Below, piece by piece: positions 68-37,149 of a stretch of DNA of 64,000 nucleotides. Every line of letters begins with the position of its first letter. Position 1 is the stretch's first letter. The DNA is from Dyella marensis. Lineage in GTDB: Bacteria; Pseudomonadota; Gammaproteobacteria; Xanthomonadales; Rhodanobacteraceae. Where the stretch lies: the NCBI RefSeq assembly GCF_900112865.1, contig NZ_FONH01000001.1:124001-188000 (forward strand), read 5' to 3'. Position numbers and translations under genes: made by a program. The notes below the pieces were generated by a model. That model worked only from the letters and a program-made list of their open reading frames with translations. It had not been told where the DNA came from and ran no database searches.

Positions 68-1471
68 TCAATCCAGCACGATGGGCTCGTGCATGTCGGG
101 AATCCGGCTGGCGATATCGCGCTGCTGCAGCGCTTCGCCCATCGCGGCCATGCCGCGCTCGTATTCGCCATGTACCAGGAAGACCTCGCGCCGCGGCGAG
201 CGGCCCAGCCAATCCAGCAGCGCCGCCTGGTCCGCGTGCGCCGAAAAGCCGTTGATCGTCCAGACCTGCGCGCGCACCTGGATCTCCTCGCCGAACAGAC
301 GCACCGACCCGGCGCCATCGACGATGCGCCGCGCCAGGGTGCCCTCGGCGGCATAGCCGACAAAGACAATGCTGCAGCGCTCGCGCCACAGGTTGTGCTT
401 GAGGTGATGGCGGACGCGCCCGCCGGTGCACATGCCCGATCCGGCGAGGATCACCGCGCCGCTTTCGATGCGGTTGATCGCCATCGATTGCTCGACGTCG
501 CGAGTGAAGTGCAGGCCGGGCATGGCAAAGGGGTCGCAGTCGCGCAACAGCGCAAGGAAGGGTTGGTCGAAGCATTCCTGATGGCGCCGGAAAATCTCCG
601 TCGCCGAGATCGCCATGGGCGAGTCCAGAAACACCGGCATGCGCGCGGGCAGCTTGCCCTCGGCCGCGCCCAGATGCAGGTAATAGAGAATTTCCTGTGC
701 GCGTTCGAGCGCGAACGTCGGGATCACCACGTTGCCGCCACGCTCGAAGGTTTCGCGGATGGCGCGATACAGCTCGTCGACCGAGTCGGGCAGGGCACGA
801 TGCGGGCGATTGCCGTAGGTCGTTTCCATCACCACGTAGTCGGCCGGGGGCGCCGGCGTGGGGTCGCGCAGGATCGGGCGCCCGGGATTGCCCAAGTCGC
901 CCGAGAACAGCATGGTGCGGCTGCGCCCCTGGTCCTCCAGCGTGAGCAGGATCGAGGCGGAGCCGAGAATATGGCCGGCATCGAGGAAGCATGCGGTGAT
1001 GCCGGGCGCCACCGGCACGGTCTGCCCATAGGCCGCCGGCGGGTCGAAGTAGTCCAGGCAGTGCAGCGCAGCGTCAATGGTAAACAGCGGCTCCCTGACG
1101 TGCTCGCCACGGCGGCGCCCGCTGCGTTCGGCGCGGGCGGCGTCCTCTTCCTGCAGGCCGGCGGCATCAAGCAGCACGATGCGCGCCAGGTCGCGGGTGG
1201 CTGCCGTGGACAGGATCCTGCCGCGGAAACCCTGCCGCACCAGGCGCGGAATGCGCCCGCAATGATCCAGGTGCGCGTGGGTGAGCAGCAGGACGTCGAT
1301 GTCCTCCGGCTCGAAGCCGAACGGCTGATAATTCAGGTCGCGGTGCTCGCTGCCGCCCTGGAACATCCCGCAGTCGATCAGGATACGCCGCTCGCCGCAG
1401 CTCACCAGGTGGCACGAGCCGGTCACTTGCCTGGCGGCGCCGTGGGCGCTGTAGACCATGCTTGCGTTCAT
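68..1471 (-). CDS. beta-CASP metallo-beta-lactamase-fold protein, probable RNA-processing nuclease
   Basis: 467 residues, the usual size of the YSH1/CPSF73-like bacterial family. The N-terminal metallo-beta-lactamase half carries the zinc signature THAHLDHCGR (about residues 63-72), further ligands in DAGHILGS and FSGDLG, and the inserted beta-CASP domain follows (YGNRPH, then FAHAD-like GFSAHADQ near the C-terminus). Members act as endo/exoribonucleases or related hydrolases; the substrate here is unknown. The start at 1471 follows a GGGAGAG element. It lies 54 bp downstream of the Usp gene in the same direction, so the two are probably cotranscribed from the promoter carrying FNR-like boxes. 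Similar MBL-Usp pairs occur in low-oxygen regulons of other bacteria (family knowledge). Confidence 0.85.
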   Translation of the reverse strand: MNASMVYSAHGAARQVTGSCHLVSCGERRILIDCGMFQGGSEHRDLNYQPFGFEPEDIDVLLLTHAHLDHCGRIPRLVRQGFRGRILSTAATRDLARIVLLDAAGLQEEDAARAERSGRRRGEHVREPLFTIDAALHCLDYFDPPAAYGQTVPVAPGITACFLDAGHILGSASILLTLEDQGRSRTMLFSGDLGNPGRPILRDPTPAPPADYVVMETTYGNRPHRALPDSVDELYRAIRETFERGGNVVIPTFALERAQEILYYLHLGAAEGKLPARMPVFLDSPMAISATEIFRRHQECFDQPFLALLRDCDPFAMPGLHFTRDVEQSMAINRIESGAVILAGSGMCTGGRVRHHLKHNLWRERCSIVFVGYAAEGTLARRIVDGAGSVRLFGEEIQVRAQVWTINGFSAHADQAALLDWLGRSPRREVFLVHGEYERGMAAMGEALQQRDIASRIPDMHEPIVLD

Positions 1472-2083: not shown

Positions 2084-2118
2084 GGCAACCGATCGCCTGC
2101 GCGGCATCGCGGCGGCTG

Positions 2119-2132
2119 TTGACCTGCATCAA
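2119..2132. promoter_or_regulatory. FNR/Anr-like box
   Basis: TTGACCTGCATCAA, 9 of 10 consensus positions, centred about 56 bp upstream of the ATG at 2182. The identical 14-mer recurs at 2940-2953. Best placed to drive the rightward small-heat-shock-like gene, possibly also the Usp gene on the other strand. Confidence 0.65.
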
Positions 2133-2181
2133 GGCATGCCGCGTACATCGCCGCGAAGCTTCGTCCAGGAGGCAAGCCGCC

Positions 2182-2433
2182 ATGACCCGCATGACCCGCT
2201 GGAATCCGTTCCGAGGCATCGCCCATATCGACCCGACGGCCGACGCCGAGTACCGCGGCCCAGGACCGCATCCGCGCTGGAACGAGCCGGCGATCGCACC
2301 GGACATGGACGCGGAGTTGTCCAAGGCCGATGCCAGCCGCCCCGAAGAGAAGGGCGGCACTCCTTCGAACGCCCCGGCGAGACCGACAGCAGCGACGCCG
2401 TGCGTCGCGCCGACATCAGTGCCGAAGCCATAG
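2182..2433 (+). pseudogene. probable remnant of an Hsp20-type small heat shock protein
   Basis: The frame opens with a good start (AGGAGG, 11 bp before ATG) and reads MTRMTRWNPFRGIAHIDP, then WNEPAIAPDMDAELSKAD. This resembles the N-terminus of Hsp20 proteins (TRxxPFRxxARxDP ... APxxDVSExD), but the alpha-crystallin core that should follow (the AEIPGV... strand and the GVLTLTLPK motif) is absent. The frame stops after 83 codons. In another forward frame, just downstream, RHSFERPGETDSSDAV faintly resembles the GSFERSF...VDADAV region, consistent with deletion plus frameshift. An FNR-like box precedes it. Alternative: an unrelated short protein. No significant similarity search was possible here. 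Confidence 0.4.
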
Positions 2434-4772: not shown

Positions 4773-7177
4773 GCATGGACCTCACGCAGCGCGGCGGCCT
4801 CGGCCGGCGGCATCGACTCGGCGCGGCCGATGCGCAACGCATTGAGCACCACCAGCAGCGAACTGGCCGACATGCCGATCGCGGCCAGCCACGGCGGCAT
4901 CAGGCCGAGCGCGGCCGGCGGCACCACGCACAGGTTGTAGCAAAGCGACCAGCGGTGGTTCTGGCCCAGGATGCGCAGCGTCTGCTGCGCCAGCCGGCGC
5001 GCTTCGGGCAACGCCTGCAGCCGACCGCCGGTAAGCACGATGTCGCTGCTGACCTGCGCCAGCGGGGTGCCGTTGCCCATCGCCACGGCGATGTCGGCGC
5101 CGGCCAGCACGGGGGCGTCATTGATGCCGTCGCCGACGGCGATCACCCGCGCGCCTTCCGCGCGCAATTCGCGCAGGCGCGCCAGCTTGTCCGCCGGCGT
5201 CTGGCGCGCATGCCATTGGCCGGCGCCGATCGCCTGCGCGATGGCGCCGACGCGGTGCGCGGCGTCCCCGCTGAGCACTTCTACAGCCAAGCCCTGGGCT
5301 TGCAGCGCGTGCACGCAGGCAGCAGCCCCATCGCGCAGGCGTTCGCGCGGGTGGAAGGTGGCGAGCACGCCATGGCGATCGGCCAGCACCACGGCGTCTG
5401 CCAGCGCATGGGCGTCGAGCGTGCCGCGCAAGGCGAAGTCGGCGCGGCCCAGGCGCAGCCGGCGGCCGGTGACAGTGCCTTCCACACCCATGCCTGGATG
5501 GGCGGCCACGTCGGTTGCCGCGGGCAGCGCATCCTCCCCGGCGGCGATATCGACGATGGCACGCGCCAGCGGATGACTGCTGGCGCGTGCCAACGCAGCC
5601 GCCAGCGGCAGCGCCGCTGCATCGCCACCCACTTGCTGGACGTGCGGCGAGGTCAGCGTGCCGGTCTTGTCGAAGACCACGTGATCGGCTTCGGCCAGCT
5701 TTTCCACTGCGTCGGCATGCGCGACCAGCACGCCGCGATGCGCCAGCACGGCGAGCGCACGCGTCATCGCCGCCGGCACCGCCAGCGCGAAGGCGCAAGG
5801 GCAGGACACCACCAGCACGGCCAGCGTGGCGGTGAGTACACGCGAAGGATCGAGCAGGCTCCAGCCCAGCGCGGTCAGCGCGGTCAACGCCAGCACGCGA
5901 GCCACGAAGCGCGCGGCGGCACGTTCGCCGGCCAGGGCCAGGCGCGGGCGTTCGGCCTGCGCGCGATGCACCAGCGCGACGATGCCGGCCAGCGCGGTGT
6001 CGGCGCCTACGCGTTCCACGCGCAGGCGCACCGGACCGTCCTGCAGCACGCTGCCGGCGATCAGCGAGTCGCCGGGGTGCCGCGCCACCGGTTCGGCTTC
6101 GCCGGTAAGCAGGGCCTCATCGACATGGCAGGCGCGATCGAGCAACACGCCATCGGCCGGCACGCCGCCGCCTTCGGCCACATGCACCACGTCGCCCACG
6201 CGCAGCTCTGCGGCGCCGATGCGCTCGAACGCGCCATCCGCGCGGCAACGGTCGGCGAACATCGGCGTGAGCCGCGCCAGCGCATCGACCAGGTCGCCCG
6301 AGCGATGCCGCGCGCGCATCTCCAGGAACCGGCCCAGCAACAGGAAGAACACGAACATGCTGACCGAATCGAAGTACACCTCGGCGCCGCCGCGCAGCGC
6401 CTCGGCCAGGCTGGCGGCATAGATCAGGCTGACCGCCAGCGCCACCGGTACGTCCATGCCCAGCCGCCGCGCGCGCAGGTTGCGCAGCGCGCCGGCGAAG
6501 AACGGCCGCGCTGCGTACAGCACCACCGGCGTGGCGAGCAGGAAGCCGATCCAGCGCAGCAGTTCGCGCGTGCTGGCGTCCATGTCCTGGAAGGCGCCGA
6601 CATACAGCGCCACGCCGTACATCATCGCCTGCATGGAACCGAAGCCGGCCACCGCCAGGCGCTTGAGCGCGTCGCGGGTTTCGCGGCGGCGCGCATCGTC
6701 CAGCGCGCGCGCGTCCAGCGGCAGGGCGCGGTAGCCTGTGCGGGCGAGATTGTCGAGCAGTGCCGGCAGCGGCGTGCGCGCCGGATCCCACACCACGCGG
6801 CAGCGCGCGGCGGCGGCATTGACCTGCACTTGGGCGACGCCGGGCAGGGTGCCCAGGCTGCGCTCGATCAGCCACACACAGGCGGCGCAGCGCACGCCTT
6901 CGATCAGCAGACAGACTTCGCTGCGTGCACCATCGAGAGGGCGCACGACGTGGCGGTCCAGCTCCGGGCACGACCAGGTGGCACTGGCTTCCGTGCTTTG
7001 CTCCGCCTTGCGCGCGGGGGCGCTGCGCAAGCGGTAGTAGTCGCCCAGGCCCAGCTGCTCGATCCATTCGGCGGCAGCGCGGCAGCCGATGCAGCAGAAC
7101 GCGCAGGGTTCGCCGCCGATGCGGGCGAGGACCGGTTCGTGTGGCAGTGGCTCGTGACAGTGGAAGCAGGCGCTCAT
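4769..7177 (-). CDS. ccoI: copper-translocating P-type ATPase CcoI/FixI
   Basis: 802 residues. N-terminal Cys-rich region (CFHCHEPLP, then CCIGC), a heavy-metal-associated domain with GVRCAACVWLIE, the membrane CPC ion motif (SCPCAFALAVP), the phosphorylation loop DKTGTLT, the SSHPLA motif and hinge GDGINDAPVLAGAD. This is the P1B ATPase that exports copper for cbb3 oxidase assembly. Start at 7177 gives the normal CcoI N-terminus and overlaps the ccoH stop by 4 bp; the open frame extends further upstream inside ccoH but that part is shadow. Confidence 0.95.
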   Translation of the reverse strand: MSACFHCHEPLPHEPVLARIGGEPCAFCCIGCRAAAEWIEQLGLGDYYRLRSAPARKAEQSTEASATWSCPELDRHVVRPLDGARSEVCLLIEGVRCAACVWLIERSLGTLPGVAQVQVNAAAARCRVVWDPARTPLPALLDNLARTGYRALPLDARALDDARRRETRDALKRLAVAGFGSMQAMMYGVALYVGAFQDMDASTRELLRWIGFLLATPVVLYAARPFFAGALRNLRARRLGMDVPVALAVSLIYAASLAEALRGGAEVYFDSVSMFVFFLLLGRFLEMRARHRSGDLVDALARLTPMFADRCRADGAFERIGAAELRVGDVVHVAEGGGVPADGVLLDRACHVDEALLTGEAEPVARHPGDSLIAGSVLQDGPVRLRVERVGADTALAGIVALVHRAQAERPRLALAGERAAARFVARVLALTALTALGWSLLDPSRVLTATLAVLVVSCPCAFALAVPAAMTRALAVLAHRGVLVAHADAVEKLAEADHVVFDKTGTLTSPHVQQVGGDAAALPLAAALARASSHPLARAIVDIAAGEDALPAATDVAAHPGMGVEGTVTGRRLRLGRADFALRGTLDAHALADAVVLADRHGVLATFHPRERLRDGAAACVHALQAQGLAVEVLSGDAAHRVGAIAQAIGAGQWHARQTPADKLARLRELRAEGARVIAVGDGINDAPVLAGADIAVAMGNGTPLAQVSSDIVLTGGRLQALPEARRLAQQTLRILGQNHRWSLCYNLCVVPPAALGLMPPWLAAIGMSASSLLVVLNALRIGRAESMPPAEAAALREVHA

Positions 7178-25487: not shown

Positions 25488-28400
25488 ATGGCACTTACTC
25501 GTCGCGAGTTCATCAAGATCACCGGCCTGGGCCTGGCCGCATCCGGATTGGGCGTACTCGGCTTTGCCGCCTCGGGCGAGGCGCAGGCCGCCGCGGTGCG
25601 CCCCTTCAAGCTCACCCACGCCACCGAGACGCGCAACACCTGCACCTATTGCTCGGTGGCCTGCGGCATCCTGATCTACAGCATGGGCGACCGCGCCAAG
25701 AACGCGCGTTCGAACATCATCCATATCGAGGGCGACCCGGACCATCCGGTCAACCGCGGCACGCTGTGCCCCAAGGGTGCCGCCCTGCTCGACGTGGTGC
25801 ATGCCCCGACCCGCCTGAAGGCGCCGCGCTACCGGCCCGCCGGCGGCACCGAGTTCAAGGAAGTCTCCTGGGACTTCGCGCTCGACCGCATCGCTCGGCT
25901 GATGAAGGAAGACCGCGACAAGCACTTCATCGCCAAGAACCCGGCCGGCACCACGGTCAACCGGTGGACGACCACCGGCATGCTCGCCGCGTCGGCCTCG
26001 TCCAGCGAAACCGCCTACCTGACCTGGAAGGTGGTCCGCTCACTCGGCATGGTGGTGTTCGACAACCAGGCGCGCGTCTGACACGGACCGACGGTGGCCA
26101 GTCTGGCCCCATCATTCGGTCGCGGTGCGATGACCAACACCTGGCAGGACATCAAGAACGCCAATGTAGTGGTGGTGATGGGCGGCAATGCCGCCGAGGC
26201 CCACCCGTGCGGTTTCAAATGGGTGATCGAGGCGAAGATCGAGAACGGCGCCAAGCTCGTCGTGGTCGATCCGCGCTTCACGCGCACGGCCGCGGTGGCC
26301 GATTACTACGCGCCGATCCGCCCCGGCACCGACATCGCCTTCCTCAACGGCGTCATCCACTACCTGCTGGAAAAGGATGCGATCCAGCACGAGTACGTGC
26401 GCGCCTATACCAACGCCAGCCTGATCGTGAAGGAGGGCTTCGACTTCCAGGACGGCCTGTTCAGCGGCTACAACGAGGAAAAGCACAGCTACGACAAGTC
26501 CAGCTGGGACTACGAACTGGACAAGGACGGCTACGCCCAATCCGACGACACCTGGCAGAACCCTCGCTGCGTCATCAATCTGCTGAAGCAGCACGTGTCG
26601 CGCTACACGCCGGAGATGGTCTCGCGCATCTGCGGCACGCCGCAGGACAAGTTCCTGCACGTATGCGAGCTGTTCGCCAGCACCGCCGCGCCGGACAAGG
26701 CAATGACCTCGCTGTTCGCGCTGGGCTGGACCCAGCACTCGGTCGGCTCGCAGAACATCCGCAACATGGCGATGGTGCAGCTGCTGCTGGGCAATATCGG
26801 CGTGGCCGGCGGCGGCATGAATGCGCTGCGCGGGCATTCCAACATCCAGGGCCTGACCGACGTCGGCCTGCTCTCCAACCTGCTGCCGGGCTATATGAAC
26901 CTGCCGGTGGACAAGGAGACCAGCCTCGACGAGTACATGAGAACGAAGCAGTTCAAGCCGCTGCGCCCGGGCCAGACCAGCTACTGGCAGAACTACCGCA
27001 AGTTCTTCGTGAGCCTGCAGAAGGCCCTGTGGGGCGATGCCGCCAGCAAGGACAACGACTGGGCCTACGACTGGCTGCCCAAGCTCGACGTGCCGCTGTA
27101 CGACGTGATCAAGGCCTTCGAGATGATGGATCAGGGGCAGATGGGCGGCTACATCTGCCAGGGCTTCAATCCGCTGCAGGCCTTCCCCGACCGCGGCAAG
27201 ATCCGCCGGAGCCTGAGCAAGCTGAAGTTCCTGGTCACGATGGACCCGCTGGATACGGAAACCTCGCGTTTCTGGCAGGACTTCGGCCCACAGAATCCGG
27301 CCAAGTCCGCCGAGATCCAGACCGAAGTCTTCCAGCTGCCGACCACCTGCTTCGCCGAGGAAAACGGCTCGCTGGTCAATTCCGCGCGCTGGCTGCAATG
27401 GCATTGGAAAGCCGCCGACGCCCCGGGCGATGCGAAGTCCGACATCTGGATCATGACCGGCCTGTTCCAGCGCCTGCGCGAGTTGTACCGCAAGGAAGGC
27501 GGCGCCTTCCCCGACCCGGTGCTCGGGCTGACCTGGAAATACACCGACCCGCACGAGCCGGATCCGGAAGAACTGGCCAAGGAAATGAACGGCCGCGCCC
27601 TCACCGACCTGGTCGATCCGGCCACCAATACGGTGGCGACCAAGGCCGGCACCCTGCTCGACGCCTTCGCCCAGCTGCGCGACGACGGCAGCACCTCGTC
27701 CGGCTGCTGGATCTTCACCGGCTGCTTCACCGAGAAGGGCAACCAGATGGCGCGGCGCGACGCCACCGACCCGCGCGAACAGGGCATCGCACCGAACTGG
27801 GCCTGGGCCTGGCCGGCCAACCGCCGCATTCTCTATAACCGCGCCAGCGCGGACCCCGACGGCAAGCCGTGGAATCCGGCCAAGCCGGTGATCTCGTGGA
27901 ACGGCAGCAAGTGGGTGGGCGTCGACGTGCCCGACTACGGCCCTACCGTAAAGCCGTCCGACGGCGTCGGCCCCTTCATCATGAACGCCGAAGGCATGGG
28001 CCGCCTGTTCGCCCGCGACATGATGGGCGACGGCCCCTTCCCCGAGCACTACGAGCCGCTGGAATCGCCGGTGGAGAACGTGCTGCACCCAAAAGTCAGC
28101 TCCAATCCGGTCGCCCGCGTCTTTCCCAATGACCGCGCCTCGTTCGGCAGCCCGAAGAACTTCCCCTACGTGGCCACCACCTATCGCCTGACCGAGCACT
28201 TCCATTACTGGACCAAGCATGCGCTGATCAACGCCGTACTGCAGCCGGAGGAATTCATCGAGATCGGCGAGGCGCTGGCCAAGGAGAAAGGCATCGAGCA
28301 AGGCGGCTGGGTGAAGGTGAGCTCCAAGCGCGGCGAGGTGATCTGCAAGGCCTACGTGACCAAGCGCATCAAGCCGATGACGGTGGACGGCAAGCCCACC

Positions 28401-28562
28401 CATGTGATCGGCGTGCCGATCCACTGGGGCTTTACCGGCCAGGCCAGAAAAGGCTACGGCGCCAACACGCTGACCCCATCGGTGGGCGACGCCAATACGC
28501 AGACGCCGGAGTTCAAGGCGTTCCTGGTCAATGTCGAACGAACCGCGGCACCGGCAGCCTGA
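25488..28562 (+). CDS. fdnG: formate dehydrogenase-N alpha subunit, selenocysteine-containing
   Basis: 1024 residues if the in-frame TGA at 26079-26081 is read as selenocysteine (residue 198; E. coli FdnG uses 196). Flanking residues DNQARV-U-HGPTVASLAP and GRGAMTN match FdnG/FdoG exactly, so this is recoding, not a broken gene. Tat signal with TRREFIK at the N-terminus; 4Fe-4S ligands in CTYCSVACG and CPKG; molybdopterin-dinucleotide domains follow. It oxidises formate in the periplasm and passes electrons to the beta and gamma subunits and then to quinone. Start at 25488; a 56-codon upstream extension is not supported. A putative SECIS lies just after the UGA. Confidence 0.96.
26079..26120 (+). 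promoter_or_regulatory. UGA(Sec) codon and SECIS-like hairpin
   Basis: The UGA is at 26079-26081. Downstream, 26087-26091 (ACCGA) pairs with 26116-26120 (TCGGT), and an apical stem 26096-26099 (GGCC) pairs with 26105-26108 (GGCC) around a five-base loop AGTCT. The apical loop sequence and its 14-base distance from the UGA match my recollection of the E. coli fdnG element (GCA-AGUCU-UGC). This would be the SelB binding site. Confidence 0.75.
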
Positions 28563-29489: not shown

Positions 29490-30145
29490 CCCGCCCGAAG
29501 AACGCCATCGTCCGCTACACCCTGGCCAACCGGGTCAACCACTGGATCACCGCGATCTGCTTCGTGCTGCTGGTGCTGTCGGGTCTGTCGATGTTCCATC
29601 CGATGCTGTTCTTCCTATCCGGCCTGTTCGGCGGCGGGCAATGGGCGCGCGCGGCGCATCCGTGGATCGGCGTGGTGCTGCTGCTCAGTTACCTGGGCCT
29701 GATCGTGCAGTTCTGGCGCGAGAACCTGTGGAACCGGGACGACTCGGCGTGGATGAAATCGATCGATGCCGTCGTCGCCAACGACGAGGAACGCTCGCCG
29801 CCGGTGGGCCGCAACAACGCCGGCCAGAAACTGGTGTTCTGGTCGATGACCCTGCTGGTGCCGGTGCTGTTCTTCAGCGGCCTGGCGATCTGGGAGGTGT
29901 ACTTCGGCGCGGCCACCTCGATCCCGACGCAGCGCGCGGCGGCCTTGATCCATAGCGTGGCCGCGCTGGCGGCGATCATCATCTGGATCATCCACGTCTA
30001 TGCCGCCATCTGGGTGCGCCATTCGGTGCGCGCGATGACCCAGGGCTATGTGACGCCGGGCTGGGCCTGGCGCCATCACCGCAAATGGCTGTTGGAGCTG
30101 GCCTCCCACCAGCACGGCAAGACCGACACCAGGAAACGCACGTGA
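29486..30145 (+). CDS. fdnI: formate dehydrogenase gamma subunit, cytochrome b556
   Basis: 219 residues with four transmembrane helices. Heme-ligand histidines are in NRVNHWITA near the start, HPWIGV, and [13 protein letters not shown] near the C-terminus, the FdnI/FdoI pattern; the tail [16 protein letters not shown] is characteristic. It transfers electrons from FdxH to the quinone pool. ATGA overlap with the beta gene; its stop overlaps the GTG start of fdhE. Confidence 0.93.
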
Positions 30146-31068
30146 GACAAGCCGAAGCGCCGCCCAGCGGCAAGTGGACCGGGCCTGCGCATGCCGGCGT
30201 CAAGGCGCCGGAGCCGATCGTGCTGCCCGATCCGGCAAGGCGTTTCGCCGCTACCGCGCAGCGGCTCGAACAGCTCGCCGAAGGCCATCCGATGGCGGCC
30301 TGGCTGCGTTTTCTCGGCCGCCTGGCGCGAGCGCAGCACGAAGCGGCGACGACGCTTGCGCCAGGCGCCGCACTCGATCCGGCCGCGATCGCGCAGGCGA
30401 TCGACGCACGTATTCCGCCATTGGCCGCGGATGGCCATCGCCGCGATGCGTCCTGGCGCGAAGGGCTTGCACGGTTGCTCGAACGGATCGACCGCGACGC
30501 TCTGCCGGACGCGGCGTTGCAAGTCATCGAACAACTGCAACGCAGCGATGCGGCCGCCCAGGACCGCCTCGCCGACCGGTTCCTGCGCGGCGGCCTGGCT
30601 GCCGACGATGCGGGCGCGGCGATCTACGTCGCCGCGGCGCTGCAGGTCTATTTCACTTGCGCGGCCGCGCGCCTCCAGGCGGAAGACCTGCGCTTGCTGG
30701 AAGAACGCGGACTGTGTCCTTGCTGCGGCTCGCCCCCGGTCGCCGGCGTGGTGACCGCCGGCGGCACCACGCCCGGCATGCGCTATCTGCATTGCTCGCT
30801 GTGCTCGACGGCATGGAATCACGTGCGCGCCGTCTGCATCACCTGCGGCGGCACGCGGCACCTGGCGCTGCAGGCCATCGATGGCGATGCGGGACTGGTG
30901 AAAGCCGAGACCTGCGGCGAATGCCATACCTACGCCAAGCTGCTCTACCAGATCCACGACATGCAGGCCGATCCCCATGCCGACGACCTGGCGTCGTTCG
31001 GCCTGGACATCCTGGTCGCCGAGGCAGGCTTCGCGCGCCACGCCCAGAACCCCCTGCTCTTGCTATGA
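30142..31068 (+). CDS. fdhE: formate dehydrogenase accessory protein FdhE
   Basis: 308 residues from a GTG start that overlaps the fdnI stop by 4 bp (GTGA), with AGGAAA just upstream; FdhE is normally 305-309. The C-terminal half has the rubredoxin-like iron-binding cysteine pairs CPCCGSPP, CSLCSTAWNH, CITCGG and ETCGECHTY. FdhE is a cytoplasmic factor needed to make active Tat-exported formate dehydrogenase. The sulfurtransferase FdhD, also usually required, is not in this window. Confidence 0.93.
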   Translation: MRQAEAPPSGKWTGPAHAGVKAPEPIVLPDPARRFAATAQRLEQLAEGHPMAAWLRFLGRLARAQHEAATTLAPGAALDPAAIAQAIDARIPPLAADGHRRDASWREGLARLLERIDRDALPDAALQVIEQLQRSDAAAQDRLADRFLRGGLAADDAGAAIYVAAALQVYFTCAAARLQAEDLRLLEERGLCPCCGSPPVAGVVTAGGTTPGMRYLHCSLCSTAWNHVRAVCITCGGTRHLALQAIDGDAGLVKAETCGECHTYAKLLYQIHDMQADPHADDLASFGLDILVAEAGFARHAQNPLLLL

Positions 31069-32508: not shown

Positions 32509-33930
32509 GTGACCGGACCTGAGGCCAGCTCCCTGCGCAAGCTCCCCGCCGTCGCCACCGTGCTGGCGACCGGCGTGGCCGCCGCCTTGGTGGAACGGCA
32601 CGGTCGCGTCGCCGCCACCGACGCGATCCGCGCGGCGATCGACGAGGCCCGCGACGCCATGCGCGGCACCGCGGCGAGCGCACCCGATGCGGCCGAACTC
32701 GCGCAACGCGCCGCGGTGCGCCTGGACGCCCGCCTGCCCGGCCTGCGCCCGCTGTTCAATCTCACCGGCACGGTGCTGCATACCAACCTCGGCCGCGCCC
32801 TGCTCGCCGAAGCCGCCATCGAGGCGGCGGCCGCCGCGATGCGCCATGCGGTGGCGCTGGAATACGACCTGGACGGCGGCGAACGCGGCGAGCGCGACGA
32901 TCACCTGCGCGGCCTGCTGTGCGAACTGACCGGCGCCGAGGACGCCACCGTGGTCAACAACAATGCCGCGGCCGTGCTGCTGTGCCTCAACAGCCTGGCG
33001 TTGGGGCGCGATGCGGTGGTCTCGCGCGGCGAGCTGATCGAGATCGGCGGCGCCTTCCGCCTGCCGCAGATCATGGAGCGGGCCGGGGTGCGCATGGTGG
33101 AGGTAGGCACCACCAACCGCACCCATCCGGCCGACTATCGCGAGGCCATCGGCGAACGCACCGGCCTGGTGCTGAAGGTGCATACCTCCAACTACCGCAT
33201 CCAGGGCTTCACTGCGGAAGTCGGCGCGCGCGAGCTGGCGGCGATCGCCAACGCTGCCGGCGTGCCGCTGCTCAACGACCTGGGCTCCGGCATGCTGGTC
33301 GATCTGTCGCGCTACGGCCTCGCCAGGGAACCGACCGTGCGCGAGGCGGTGGCCGAAGGCGCCCGGCTGGTCACCTTTTCGGGCGACAAACTGCTGGGCG
33401 GACCGCAGGCCGGCTTTATCGTCGGCGAGCGTGCGCTGATCGAGCGGATCAACCGCAACCCGCTCAAGCGCGCGCTGCGCGTGGACAAGCTGCGCCTGGC
33501 CGCGATCGAAGCGACCTTGAACCTGTATCGCGATCCGGATCGCCTGGCCGAACGGCTGCCCACCTTGCGTTTCCTCGCACGCCCTCAAGTGGACATCGAG
33601 GCGCAGGCGCAGCGCCTGCGCCCGGCGGTTGCGCAAAAACTTGCCGACACCTTCGTGGTGACCGTCGGCGCCTGCGCCAGCCAGGTGGGTTCCGGCGCCC
33701 TGCCCCTGGACACGCTGGCCAGCGCCGCCCTGCTGATCCGCCCGCACGGCAGCCAGCTCATGCTCGACCGACTGGCCACCGCCATGCGCGCGCTGCCGCA
33801 GCCGATCATCGGCCGCATCGCCGACGGCGCCCTGCAGCTGGACCTGCGCTGCCTGGCCGACGCCGACGAAGACGCCTTCCTGGCGAGCCTGACCCGGCTC
33901 GATCTCGACGCCACGCGCAGCGCTCCATGA
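32509..33930 (+). CDS. selA: L-seryl-tRNA(Sec) selenium transferase
   Basis: 473 residues from a GTG start (E. coli SelA is 463). PLP-binding lysine in [15 protein letters not shown]; family motifs [16 protein letters not shown] and [15 protein letters not shown] are present, with [12 protein letters not shown]. It converts Ser-tRNA(Sec) to Sec-tRNA(Sec) using selenophosphate. The start is set by homology; the ribosome site is weak. Its stop overlaps the selB ATG by 4 bp (ATGA). Upstream is the 293-bp divergent region shared with the permease. Confidence 0.95.
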
Positions 33931-35915
33931 TCGTCGGTACCGCAGGCCATATCGATCATGGCAAGACTTCGCTGATCAAGGCCCTCACCGGCGTCGACGG
34001 CGACCGCCTGAAAGAAGAGAAGGCGCGCGGCATCACCATCGACCTGGGCTTTGCCTACCTGCCGCTGGCCGACGGCACCACGCTGGGTTTCGTCGACGTG
34101 CCTGGGCATGAGCGTTTCGTGCACACCATGGTGGCGGGCGCCAGCGGCATCGACATCGCGCTGCTGGTGGTCGCGGCCGACGACGGCGTGATGCCGCAGA
34201 CGCTGGAGCACCTGGCCATCCTCGATCTGCTGCAGATCCGGCGTGGCCTCATCGCCTTGACCAAGGTCGACCTGGCCCCGCCGGGACGGCTCGCCGAAGT
34301 CGGCGCGCAGATCCGCGCGGCCACCGCCGGCAGCGTGCTCGAAGCGGCGGATGTCTTCCCCATTTCCTCGACCACCGGCCTGGGCATCGACGCCCTGCGC
34401 GAGCGCCTCGCCGCTGAAGCGCACACCCTGGGCGAGCGCGCCGCCGACGGCCGTTTCCGCCTGGCCGTCGATCGCGTCTTCACCCTGCCCGGGATCGGCC
34501 TGACCGTGACCGGCACGGTGCTGTCCGGCGCGGTGCGCGTGAAGGACCAGATGATGCTCAGCCCTTCCGGCCTGAGCGCGCGCGTGCGTTCGCTGCATGC
34601 GCAGAATCGCGCGGTGGAACTGGGCCGCGCCGGCGACCGCTGCGCGCTGAATCTCGCCGGCGACGGTGTCGCCAAGGACGCCATCCGGCGCGGCGACATG
34701 GTGGTCGATCCTTTCCTGCATGCGCCGGTCGATCGCATCGACGCGCGGCTGCTACTGCTGCCGGGCGAGCCGAAGCCGATCGGCCAGTGGTTTCCCGCGC
34801 GCCTGCACCATGGCGCCAGCGAAGTGGGCGCGCGCGTCGTGTTGATCGAAGGCGAACAACTGGCACCCGGCCACGCGGCCGACGTGCAGCTGGTATTGAA
34901 CCGCCCGATCGCCGCCGCCGCGCTCGATCGCTTCGTGCTGCGCGACGTCTCCGCGCAGCGCACCATCGGCGGCGGCCAGTTCCTCGACCTGCGTGCGCCG
35001 CCGCGCCAGCGGCGCACCGCCGAGCGCCAGGCGCAACGCGCCGCGCGATTGCTGGCCGATCCGCTGGAAGCGTTTGCCGCACTGCTCGATACACCGCCGT
35101 TCGCCTGGGACCTGACGGCGTTCGCACGGGATCGCGCCCTGTCGCAGTCCAGGATCGACAGCATCGTCAAGTCGCTTGCGCCGGTGTTGTTCGCCACCGG
35201 CGAGGAGCGCATTGCGGTCGGCCAGGTCCATTGGCAGCGCTTCGTCGCCAGGCTGGTCGAGCACCTGGAGACCTTCCACGCCGCCAACCCGGACCTGCAG
35301 GGGATCGGCCGCGAGCGCCTGCGCCTGGCCCTGCAGCCGCGCCTGCCCGCCCCCGCCTTCGCGCTGGCCCTGCAGCACCCGGACCTGGCCGCGCGCATCG
35401 TGCGCGATGGTGCCTTCGTGCGCCTGCCCGGCCACACCATGCGGCTCGGTCCGGAACGCGAGGCGCTATGGCAGGCGCTGGCGCCGCTGCTGGGCGGCGA
35501 GGCCCGCTTCCGCCCGCCGCGGGTGCGCGACCTGGCCTGGATGCTGGCGCGGCAGGAAGCGGAGATCCGGCAGCTGCTGAAGTTCGCCGCGCGTCTGGGC
35601 CGGGTCGACGAAGTGGCGCACGATCATTTCTTCCTGCGCGCGACCATGCATGAGATGACTCTGATCGCCGCCGATCTCGCCGCCGGAGCGCCGGACGGCT
35701 GTTTCACCGCCGCGCAGTTCCGCGACCGGGTGGACAACGGTCGTAAAGTGGCGATCCAGATCCTAGAATTCTTCGACCGGCAAGGTGTCACGCTCAATCG
35801 CGGCACGCTGCGCCGGGTACAGCCGCGCTATCTGGATTTGTTCGCGCCGGCGGCGGGCGCGACGCATGGAAGAGAATCGTCTCCGGTGGGGCGTCCGGAC
35901 TTCAAATCCGGGTGA
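33927..35915 (+). CDS. selB: selenocysteine-specific elongation factor SelB
   Basis: 662 residues. GTPase motifs GHIDHGKTS (G1), RGITIDLGF (G2), [10 protein letters not shown] (G3) and LTKVDL (G4), then the EF-Tu-like barrels, and C-terminal winged-helix domains (for example [19 protein letters not shown]) that bind the SECIS. The natural end of the last winged helix is around [13 protein letters not shown]; the frame then runs 16 codons into the tRNA-Sec gene and stops at its TGA (35913-35915). Either this tail is translated or it is lost when the tRNA is cut out. Cotranscribed with selA. Confidence 0.95.
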
Positions 35916-35964
35916 GGCAGATCAGACTGTCTCGGGTGGGTTCGACTCCCACTCTCTTCCGCCA
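35868..35964 (+). tRNA. selC: tRNA-Sec (UCA anticodon)
   Basis: 97 nt including CCA, closely like E. coli selC. Acceptor stem is 8 bp (GGAAGAGA / TCTCTTCC), as required for Sec tRNAs. Anticodon TCA at 35902-35904 in loop CTTCAAA, long extra arm (GAGGCAGATCAGACTGTCTC), T arm GGTGGGTTCGACTCCCAC. The first 48 nt overlap the end of the selB frame. It is followed 26 bp later by a REP pair. Confidence 0.97.
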
Positions 35965-35990: not shown

Positions 35991-36077
35991 GTAGGTTGGG
36001 GTGAGCGCAGCGAACCCCAACACGGCCATCTTCGGGCGCACCGCCTGTTGGGGTTCGCTGCGCTCACCCCAACCTAC
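35991..36077. repeat. paired REP element (BIME-like), copy 2
   Basis: Two exact complementary 31-bp arms (outer ends GTAG; inner loop GAGCGCAGCGA, two bases shorter than in copy 1) with a 25-bp spacer. It lies between selC and the 3' end of the opposing selD. With copy 1 it brackets the permease-selA-selB-selC block. Confidence 0.85.
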
Positions 36078-36108: not shown

Positions 36109-37149
36109 TCAAATCACTTCGATGCCGGGAACGCCTGCCGCGACCGCTCCGATGATGCTCGCCCGCGGATATCCCGCCGCCTCGATCGTCGCCCGTAGCG
36201 CCTCCGCCCTCTCCGCCTTGCACGCGACCAGCAAACCGCCGGACGTCTGCGGATCGGTCAGCAAGGCGCGCCGCCATTCCGGCAAGTCCGCCGGCAACGC
36301 GACGCCATCGCCATAGCTGCTCCAGTTGCGTTTCGACGCCCCGGTCACGTAACCCGCCTCGGCCAGCGCCTCGGCCTTGGCGAAGAACGGCAGACGCGCC
36401 TGCTCGATCCGGATCCGTACGCCGCTGCCACGCGCCATCTCCAGGCCATGCCCGAGCAGGCCGAAGCCGGTGACATCGGTGATCGCGTGTACATCGTCGT
36501 CCTGCGCCAGCTCGTGGCCGATCCGGTTGAGCAGCGTGGTCGACGCCAGCATCTCGTCGTACGCGTCCGCCGGCAGCACCTGCTTCTTGAATGCCGCCGA
36601 ATAGATGCCCACGCCCAGGCCCTTGGTGAGAATCAGCGCATCGCCCGGCCGTGCGCCGGAGTTGCGCCGCAGTTGCGCCGGCGTGCACAGGCCGATCGCC
36701 GCCAGGCCATAGATCGGTTCCGCCGCATCGATCGAATGCCCGCCGGCCACCGGAATGCCGGCCTGCGCGCACACCGCCTCGCCGCCGGCGAGGATCGCGC
36801 GCACCGTGTCCACCTCGAGCTTGCCCAGCGGCATGCCCAGGATGGCCAGCGCCATGATCGGCTTGCCGCCCATCGCGTACACGTCGGACAAGGCATTGGC
36901 GGCGGCGATGCGGCCGAAGTCATAGGGGTCGTCCACCACCGGCATGAAGAAATCGGTGGTGGCGATGACGCAAGTTCGTTCGTCGACCTGCCATACCGCG
37001 GCGTCATCGCTGGACTCGGTGCCCACCAGCAGTTGCGCGAATGGCATCGCCGCGGCCTTGCCGGCGAGCAGTTCCTGCAGCACGGCAGGTGCGAGCTTGC
37101 AGCCGCAGCCGCCGCCGTGGGCCAGATCGGTCAAGCGTTCAGAGGCCAT
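36109..37149 (-). CDS. selD: selenide, water dikinase
   Basis: 346 residues (E. coli 347). N-terminal [10 protein letters not shown] carries the catalytic cysteine (Cys15) and Lys18, so this SelD uses Cys, not Sec. ATP/Mg motifs [40 protein letters not shown] and [16 protein letters not shown] are all present. It makes selenophosphate for SelA. GAGGGATC before the ATG at 37149 fixes the start; a very long upstream extension of the frame is shadow. Convergent with selC, divergent from the EEP-family gene. Confidence 0.95.

Follow-up and report, generated by a model that had tools for sequence, protein, structure and literature searches.

Why a protein-coding gene should end in the middle of the tRNA gene that follows it is the question raised by the selenocysteine locus of the soil bacterium Dyella marensis contained in the stretch of DNA analysed here (64,000 nucleotides of contig NZ_FONH01000001.1, hereafter the window). 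In this window the selB gene, which encodes the elongation factor SelB, extends into selC, the gene of the selenocysteine tRNA (tRNA-Sec) carried by that factor, and terminates at a stop codon that belongs to both genes. The features concerned are the following:

33927..35915, plus strand: selB, 662 amino acids, start codon ATG at 33927 (translation; Pfam)
35868..35964, plus strand: selC, the tRNA-Sec gene, anticodon TCA, CCA encoded (ARAGORN; Rfam RF01852; sequence)
35868..35915, plus strand: segment common to selB and selC, 48 bp, consisting of 15 codons and TGA and equal to nucleotides (nt) 1-48 of selC
35913..35915, plus strand: TGA stop codon of selB, equal to nt 46-48 of tRNA-Sec

The tRNA-Sec gene was called by ARAGORN at 35868-35964 on the plus strand with the anticodon TCA, and the RF01852 model matched at 35868-35960 with 78.5 bits, compared with a gathering score of 47. 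The selB frame is open from the ATG at 33927 to the TGA at 35913-35915 and specifies 662 amino acids, the tRNA beginning exactly after codon 647. The deduced protein contains the EF-Tu GTPase, SelB beta-barrel and winged-helix domains. SelB-wing_3, the Pfam domain nearest the C-terminus, extends to residue 630, and the 15 residues specified by the tRNA come after the last winged helix. The tool calls and the translation thus bear out a first-pass annotation of this DNA, according to which selB reaches 48 bp into selC and stops at the TGA at 35913. The genome encodes a single SelB matching at 100%, the next match reaching 98.3 bits and 33%, and it contains one tRNA-Sec: a second RF01852 match above the cut-off (49.8 bits) was identified as tRNA-Ser by ARAGORN, six lower matches that were checked represent other tRNAs, and six weaker ones remain beyond them.

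The same annotation was not aware of a description of this arrangement, which is already in print. A partial selB-selC overlap in Dyella and Luteibacter was reported by Mukai 2021 (IJMS 22:4605; PMC8124441; section 2.3 and legends of Figures 5A and 6), with the same stop position at tRNA nt 46-48 and with close relatives in which the stop precedes selC. That paper proposes that processing of the tRNA leaves a non-stop SelB mRNA, making SelB and tRNA-Sec alternative products (section 2.6 and legend of Figure 7), and it suggests that the overlap was inherited and lost several times; a passage of a 2026 review (PMC13188914) cites it for the overlap. The overlap, the stop position and the proposed trade-off were consequently published in 2021, and the window represents another Dyella-type genome with the Dyella/Luteibacter overlap, from which it shows no difference in kind, since family, strand, gene order, stop at nt 46-48 and proposed consequence are the same. 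What differs is the larger survey presented here for this group (40 loci) and the finding that relatives without the overlap carry the stop triplet in their tRNA as well. Among the titles listed, all from the open-licence literature, none announced an experimental test of the Mukai model.

The comparison with other known systems delimits the type further. The complete nesting in Alphaproteobacteria (Mukai 2021; 52 of the loci L118-L175 here) shares with the window the frame that enters the tRNA and a similar tail, but it reads through the whole tRNA, whereas selB of the window, not being open beyond the TGA at nt 46-48, ends halfway and thus does not belong to the complete-nesting type. According to PMC8124441, the coupling of the open reading frames ORF1 and ORF2 to the selB stop is absent from the partial-overlap type, and in the window the next known gene is selD, which is convergent. 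In the loci surveyed here, a mechanical scan placed the start of a downstream reading frame at most 10 nt from the selB stop in 18 of the 52 read-through loci and also in 8 of the 40 Dyella-type loci, and it is too crude to serve as evidence on coupling. In Shewanella and Ferrimonas (PMC8124441) the selB reading frame also lies over selC, but in antisense, with the tRNA on the opposite strand. A tRNA within a protein gene, with alternative processing proposed, is likewise represented by tRNA-Lys inside cox1 in the mitochondria of Armadillidium vulgare (as cited in PMC8124441), which differs from the window in that an organelle is concerned and the whole tRNA is nested. The host of the window, a member of the Rhodanobacteraceae, has a Rhizobiales-like SelB: loci outside the Dyella group, many of them titled Rhizobiales, were found at 60-67%.

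The distribution of the overlap was surveyed by searching for RF01852 at E <= 1e-10, which yielded 54 of the 233 genomes of the window's family, 49 of 398 genomes sampled from its order and 18 of 369 sampled from its class. All 54 loci of the family and all 11 of a second family were taken, together with 80 SelB loci from named genomes that constitute the best 80 of 327 hits of a query including the tail and are therefore a biased draw. Including the window, 150 records were scored; one of them (L166) was dropped, as it lacks a tRNA-Sec, and the merging of exact duplicates reduced the remaining 149 to 121 distinct loci. The loci L002-L008 and L019-L037 were set aside, ARAGORN detecting no tRNA-Sec in any of these 26. 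Three groups were distinguished: a Dyella type (SelB segment identity >= 64%, 40 distinct loci), a mostly alphaproteobacterial group defined by locus number (L118-L175 minus L130 and L166, with 7 of the 56 titles naming the phylum only) and another SelB type from the same order (identity <= 48%, 25 loci).

In 17 of the 40 Dyella-type loci selB stops inside the tRNA, invariably with TGA at nt 46-48, and in 23 it stops before selC, the gap between the selB stop and selC measuring 2-18 nt in 22 of these loci and 59 nt in one. The nearest relative of the window, Dyella sp. SG609 (L013, identical to L096; 89% SelB identity), and 15 more distinct loci stop at the same tRNA position. This recurrence in 17 of 40 distinct loci rules out a sequencing error or a stop loss in one genome, and the 16 other loci contradict the notion, considered in the first-pass annotation, of a stop lost here only. 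Conservation of the overlap in relatives, which had been proposed there as a check, is accordingly partial: 17 loci have it and 23 are without it, though the TGA is present in the tRNA of all 40.

In the alphaproteobacterial group, as drawn from the best 80 of 327 hits, 52 of 56 loci read through the whole tRNA, three stop before it and one stops at nt 46. The last kind of ending was observed in Mesorhizobium atlanticum (L143, tRNA at 4960-5055), where a half overlap with TGA at nt 46-48 is combined with a Dyella-like tRNA, for which either convergence or transfer would account. In Mesorhizobium temperatum (L166, about 4940-5049) selB ends in an apparent remnant of the 5' part of tRNA-Sec and ARAGORN found no tRNA in the locus; similar remnants are reported for Sinorhizobium in PMC8124441. 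With the other SelB type of the same order, selB stops before the tRNA in 23 of 25 loci. The two overlapping loci, L074 (genome G085, about 997-1092, minus strand) and L077 (genome G249, 2101-2196, plus strand), belong to the window's family, use a different frame and stop with TAG at tRNA nt 69-71. This form, which is absent from the text of PMC8124441, suggests that the overlap arose there independently, through the loss of a stop. No overlap was detected in 15 further gammaproteobacterial loci, of which six have selB on the same strand, six on the opposite strand and three no selB match within 1.5 kb on either side. A separate peculiarity was noted in Rhodanobacter sp. MP7CTX1 (L101, identical to L049 of genome G202), where selC starts at 1501 and is preceded, at 1485-1497, by a second copy of the first 13 nt of tRNA-Sec. 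Taken at the level of sequence comparison, this distribution suggests that the overlap comes and goes in relatives and is tolerated.

The position of the selB stop is set by the tRNA, as all 40 Dyella-type tRNA-Sec genes, whichever class they belong to, have TGA at nt 46-48, and selection for the stop position is needless as an explanation. The first 48 nt of the tRNA occur in 10 distinct versions, three of which are found in both classes (30 of the 40 loci), three in overlapping loci only and four in non-overlapping loci only. The residues between the last Pfam domain and the tRNA differ in sequence and number among the loci, and no sign of selection for coding, either in the stop position or in the tail, was seen in the 40 Dyella-type loci. 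A function in the protein for the C-terminal tail that SelB owes to the tRNA is highly improbable. The tail is almost identical across the 17 overlapping loci, which would agree with such a function, but its sameness is explained by the conservation of the tRNA, nearly the same nucleotides being kept where they are untranslated; moreover, the residues ahead of it are variable, it lies outside the Pfam domains found, and 23 of the 40 loci are without it. Within selB, the highest synonymous-codon conservation among the Dyella-type loci was observed at 35613-35672, about 200 nt before selC.

The history of the overlap was traced in a quick SelB tree of the 121 distinct loci, which contains eight state changes among the 40 Dyella-type rows, at least three of them forced by well-supported (starred) branches. 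All 17 Dyella-type overlaps share the frame, scored from the anticodon, of the 52 read-throughs, the 23 non-overlapping loci are distributed over the three frames (15, 4 and 4; Fisher p 7e-8, with related sequences being non-independent), and read-through in another frame was found in none of the 40 loci of the clade. Independent repeated gains would be expected to produce mixed frames, and the single frame thus favours an inherited overlap with several losses. These data suggest that the overlap is an inherited remnant of a read-through of the whole tRNA, as persists in the alphaproteobacterial group, and that the overlap was lost several times by stops arising just upstream.

Several observations weigh against this interpretation. 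Parsimony shows no preference for an ancestral overlap, requiring 11 losses if it is ancestral and eight gains if it is not. The argument from the frame is insecure, since, among the non-overlapping loci of the other SelB lineage, 14 of the 20 amenable to scoring share the read-through frame; a frame can also drift once the overlap is gone, and selection may act against long read-through tails. That 52 of 56 loci of the alphaproteobacterial group read through hints at an advantage in that group, though these loci come from a biased draw. The tree is provisional, as a tree uniting the alphaproteobacterial rows was 17 log units better and was not rejected in the approximately unbiased (AU) test (p-AU 0.708); a position of the Dyella-type clade within the alphaproteobacteria, as on starred branches of the quick tree, was thus not upheld, so that no conclusion on the donor is drawn and the counts of state changes are provisional. 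Finally, when the tRNAs were folded in context, with about 90 nt of upstream coding sequence and 30 nt of downstream sequence, the median pairing of the acceptor arm was 0.11 in the overlapping class versus 0.95 in the non-overlapping class (p 0.009), a difference that is usable by a model of the overlap as a switch.

With these reservations, and with confidence barely above even, we favour the reading that the window carries an overlap of the published type, an inherited remnant lost several times, whose conflict is tolerated rather than being an evolved switch. The genes selA, selB and selC would be co-transcribed, and selB might contain an additional promoter for selC. One fate of each long transcript would be translation up to the TGA, yielding a SelB whose tail of 15 residues is dispensable. 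The other would be folding and cleavage by RNase P, which would release tRNA-Sec and leave a selB message lacking a stop, with 647 as its last codon, downstream of the part that encodes the last winged helix. Ribosomes stalled on this message would be cleared by transfer-messenger RNA (tmRNA), which is present in the genome (202.1 bits), and the demand for both products is probably low, which would allow the conflict to be tolerated. By the geometry of the locus and the action of RNase P, one transcript can yield the full SelB or tRNA-Sec, not both. Given the size of the ribosome, one terminating 2-18 nt upstream would be near enough to cover or touch the 5' end of the tRNA in most of the non-overlapping loci as well; this close packing persists without overlap in 22 of 23 of them, and the overlap therefore adds mainly the stopless end.

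The trade-off between the two products put forward in the first-pass annotation is sound in its anatomy and logic, as a cut before 35868 leaves 647 codons without a stop and translation to the TGA crosses the 5' half of the tRNA; it is, however, the hypothesis of Mukai 2021, reached independently, and conservation is partly contrary to it, with selB ending before selC in 23 of 40 Dyella-type loci. In that model the overlap is a selected homeostatic switch that holds SelB and tRNA-Sec, as alternative products, in a ratio: the selB message would be lost when the tRNA folds and RNase P cuts, and the tRNA would be blocked by ribosomes translating selB. A regulatory switch is possible, but as an explanation of the overlap we judge it rather improbable. 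The geometry forces the alternative on any single transcript, the frame is single in 17 of 17 Dyella-type overlaps, other retrieved loci read through in 52 of 56 cases of the biased draw, in 39 of 40 Dyella-type loci selC is either overlapped by selB or separated from it by no more than 18 nt, and the tRNA is more disfavoured by context folding in the overlapping class; for the window the mean probability of acceptor-arm pairing is 0.91 for the tRNA alone and 0.004 in context. The model is opposed by the lack of the overlap in more than half of the Dyella-type loci, by a tRNA part without consistent difference between the classes and by the results of synonymous shuffling of the upstream 90 nt. 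The mean acceptor pairing of natural sequences and shuffles was 0.35 vs 0.38 in the overlapping class (Wilcoxon p 0.68, 17 loci) and 0.69 vs 0.64 in the non-overlapping class (p 0.12). Codon choice therefore does not explain the weaker pairing in the overlapping class, and the idea of an upstream codon usage evolved to hinder folding of the tRNA was unsupported, no tuned anti-tRNA structure being seen. That the overlap works as a mutual exclusion, in which ribosomes competing with tRNA folding and RNase P would set the ratio of SelB to tRNA-Sec per selAB-selC transcript and tmRNA would clear the cut message, appears unlikely to us.

A promoter-like site that may provide selC with its own transcript bears on the same question:

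35741..35769, plus strand: candidate selC promoter, weak, within selB and 98 bp before selC (TCGTAA, 17 nt, TAGAAT)

If selC possessed such a promoter inside selB, tRNA-Sec could be produced while the selB message stays intact, the long transcript would seldom be cut and the overlap would be of little consequence; this explanation is compatible with the one favoured above, so that their probabilities overlap, and taken by itself we consider it improbable. A selC promoter inside selB had been proposed for inspection in the first-pass annotation, and what emerged is the weak candidate alone: it matches 8 of 12 positions (p 0.02 versus synonymous shuffles, uncorrected), and a stricter scan with a cut-off of 9 revealed no strong promoter inside selB. 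The pattern TCG(A/T)AA-17-TAGAAT recurs at the same place in 17 of the 40 Dyella-type loci (6 overlapping, 11 not), each with p < 0.1 versus synonymous shuffles, but the carriers are related, the p values are uncorrected and in the remaining 23 loci the best match is a different one. The rare leucine codon CTA at 35763, within the site, is used in 16 of 40 loci compared with 2.8% of leucine codons, and no other rare codon is so strongly over-used in the last 520 codons, though the lead is narrow, the next ones reaching 15 and 14 of 40 loci. An excess of A/T at third codon positions is highest at the candidate promoter for windows of 12, 16 and 24 codons, not for 8, and is non-significant (permutation p 0.08 to 0.44).

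In the neighbourhood, the plus strand carries in turn a formate dehydrogenase gene, fdhE, selA, selB and selC, followed by the convergent selD; the remaining features are the following:

25488-28562, plus strand: formate dehydrogenase gene with an in-frame TGA at 26079 (named from sequence)
30085-31068, plus strand: fdhE
32509..33930, plus strand: selA, with a 4-bp overlap with the selB start (open reading frame; Pfam SelA, 549.5 bits)
35991..36077, no strand assigned: perfect 32-bp inverted repeat with a 23-nt loop, between selC and selD
36109..37149, minus strand: selD, 346 amino acids, convergent with selC (Pfam AIRS/AIRS_C, on a fragment of nearly equal extent)

The in-frame TGA at 26079 lies inside a match to the Rfam family SECIS_3 (26076-26134, 82.6 bits), and the formate dehydrogenase gene likely contains selenocysteine, as expected of a client of the system. 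The inverted repeat between the convergent selC and selD genes is possibly a bidirectional terminator. Its arm is dispersed in the genome, with 162 matches (69 + 93), many of them as facing pairs, to a 31-bp pattern searched genome-wide with up to three mismatches; the reversed control gave 0.

The gain over the 2021 paper thus consists in the larger comparison, which shows that the stop triplet is a part of the tRNA irrespective of where selB ends. Since most of the Dyella-type loci (23 of 40) do not have the overlap, pairs of related species are available for experiment. If the mutual exclusion were true, the contrast between Dyella lineages that have the overlap and those that lack it would amount to a natural experiment on the importance of the device, and if the competition is real, it would be an unusual way of balancing an elongation factor against its own tRNA.
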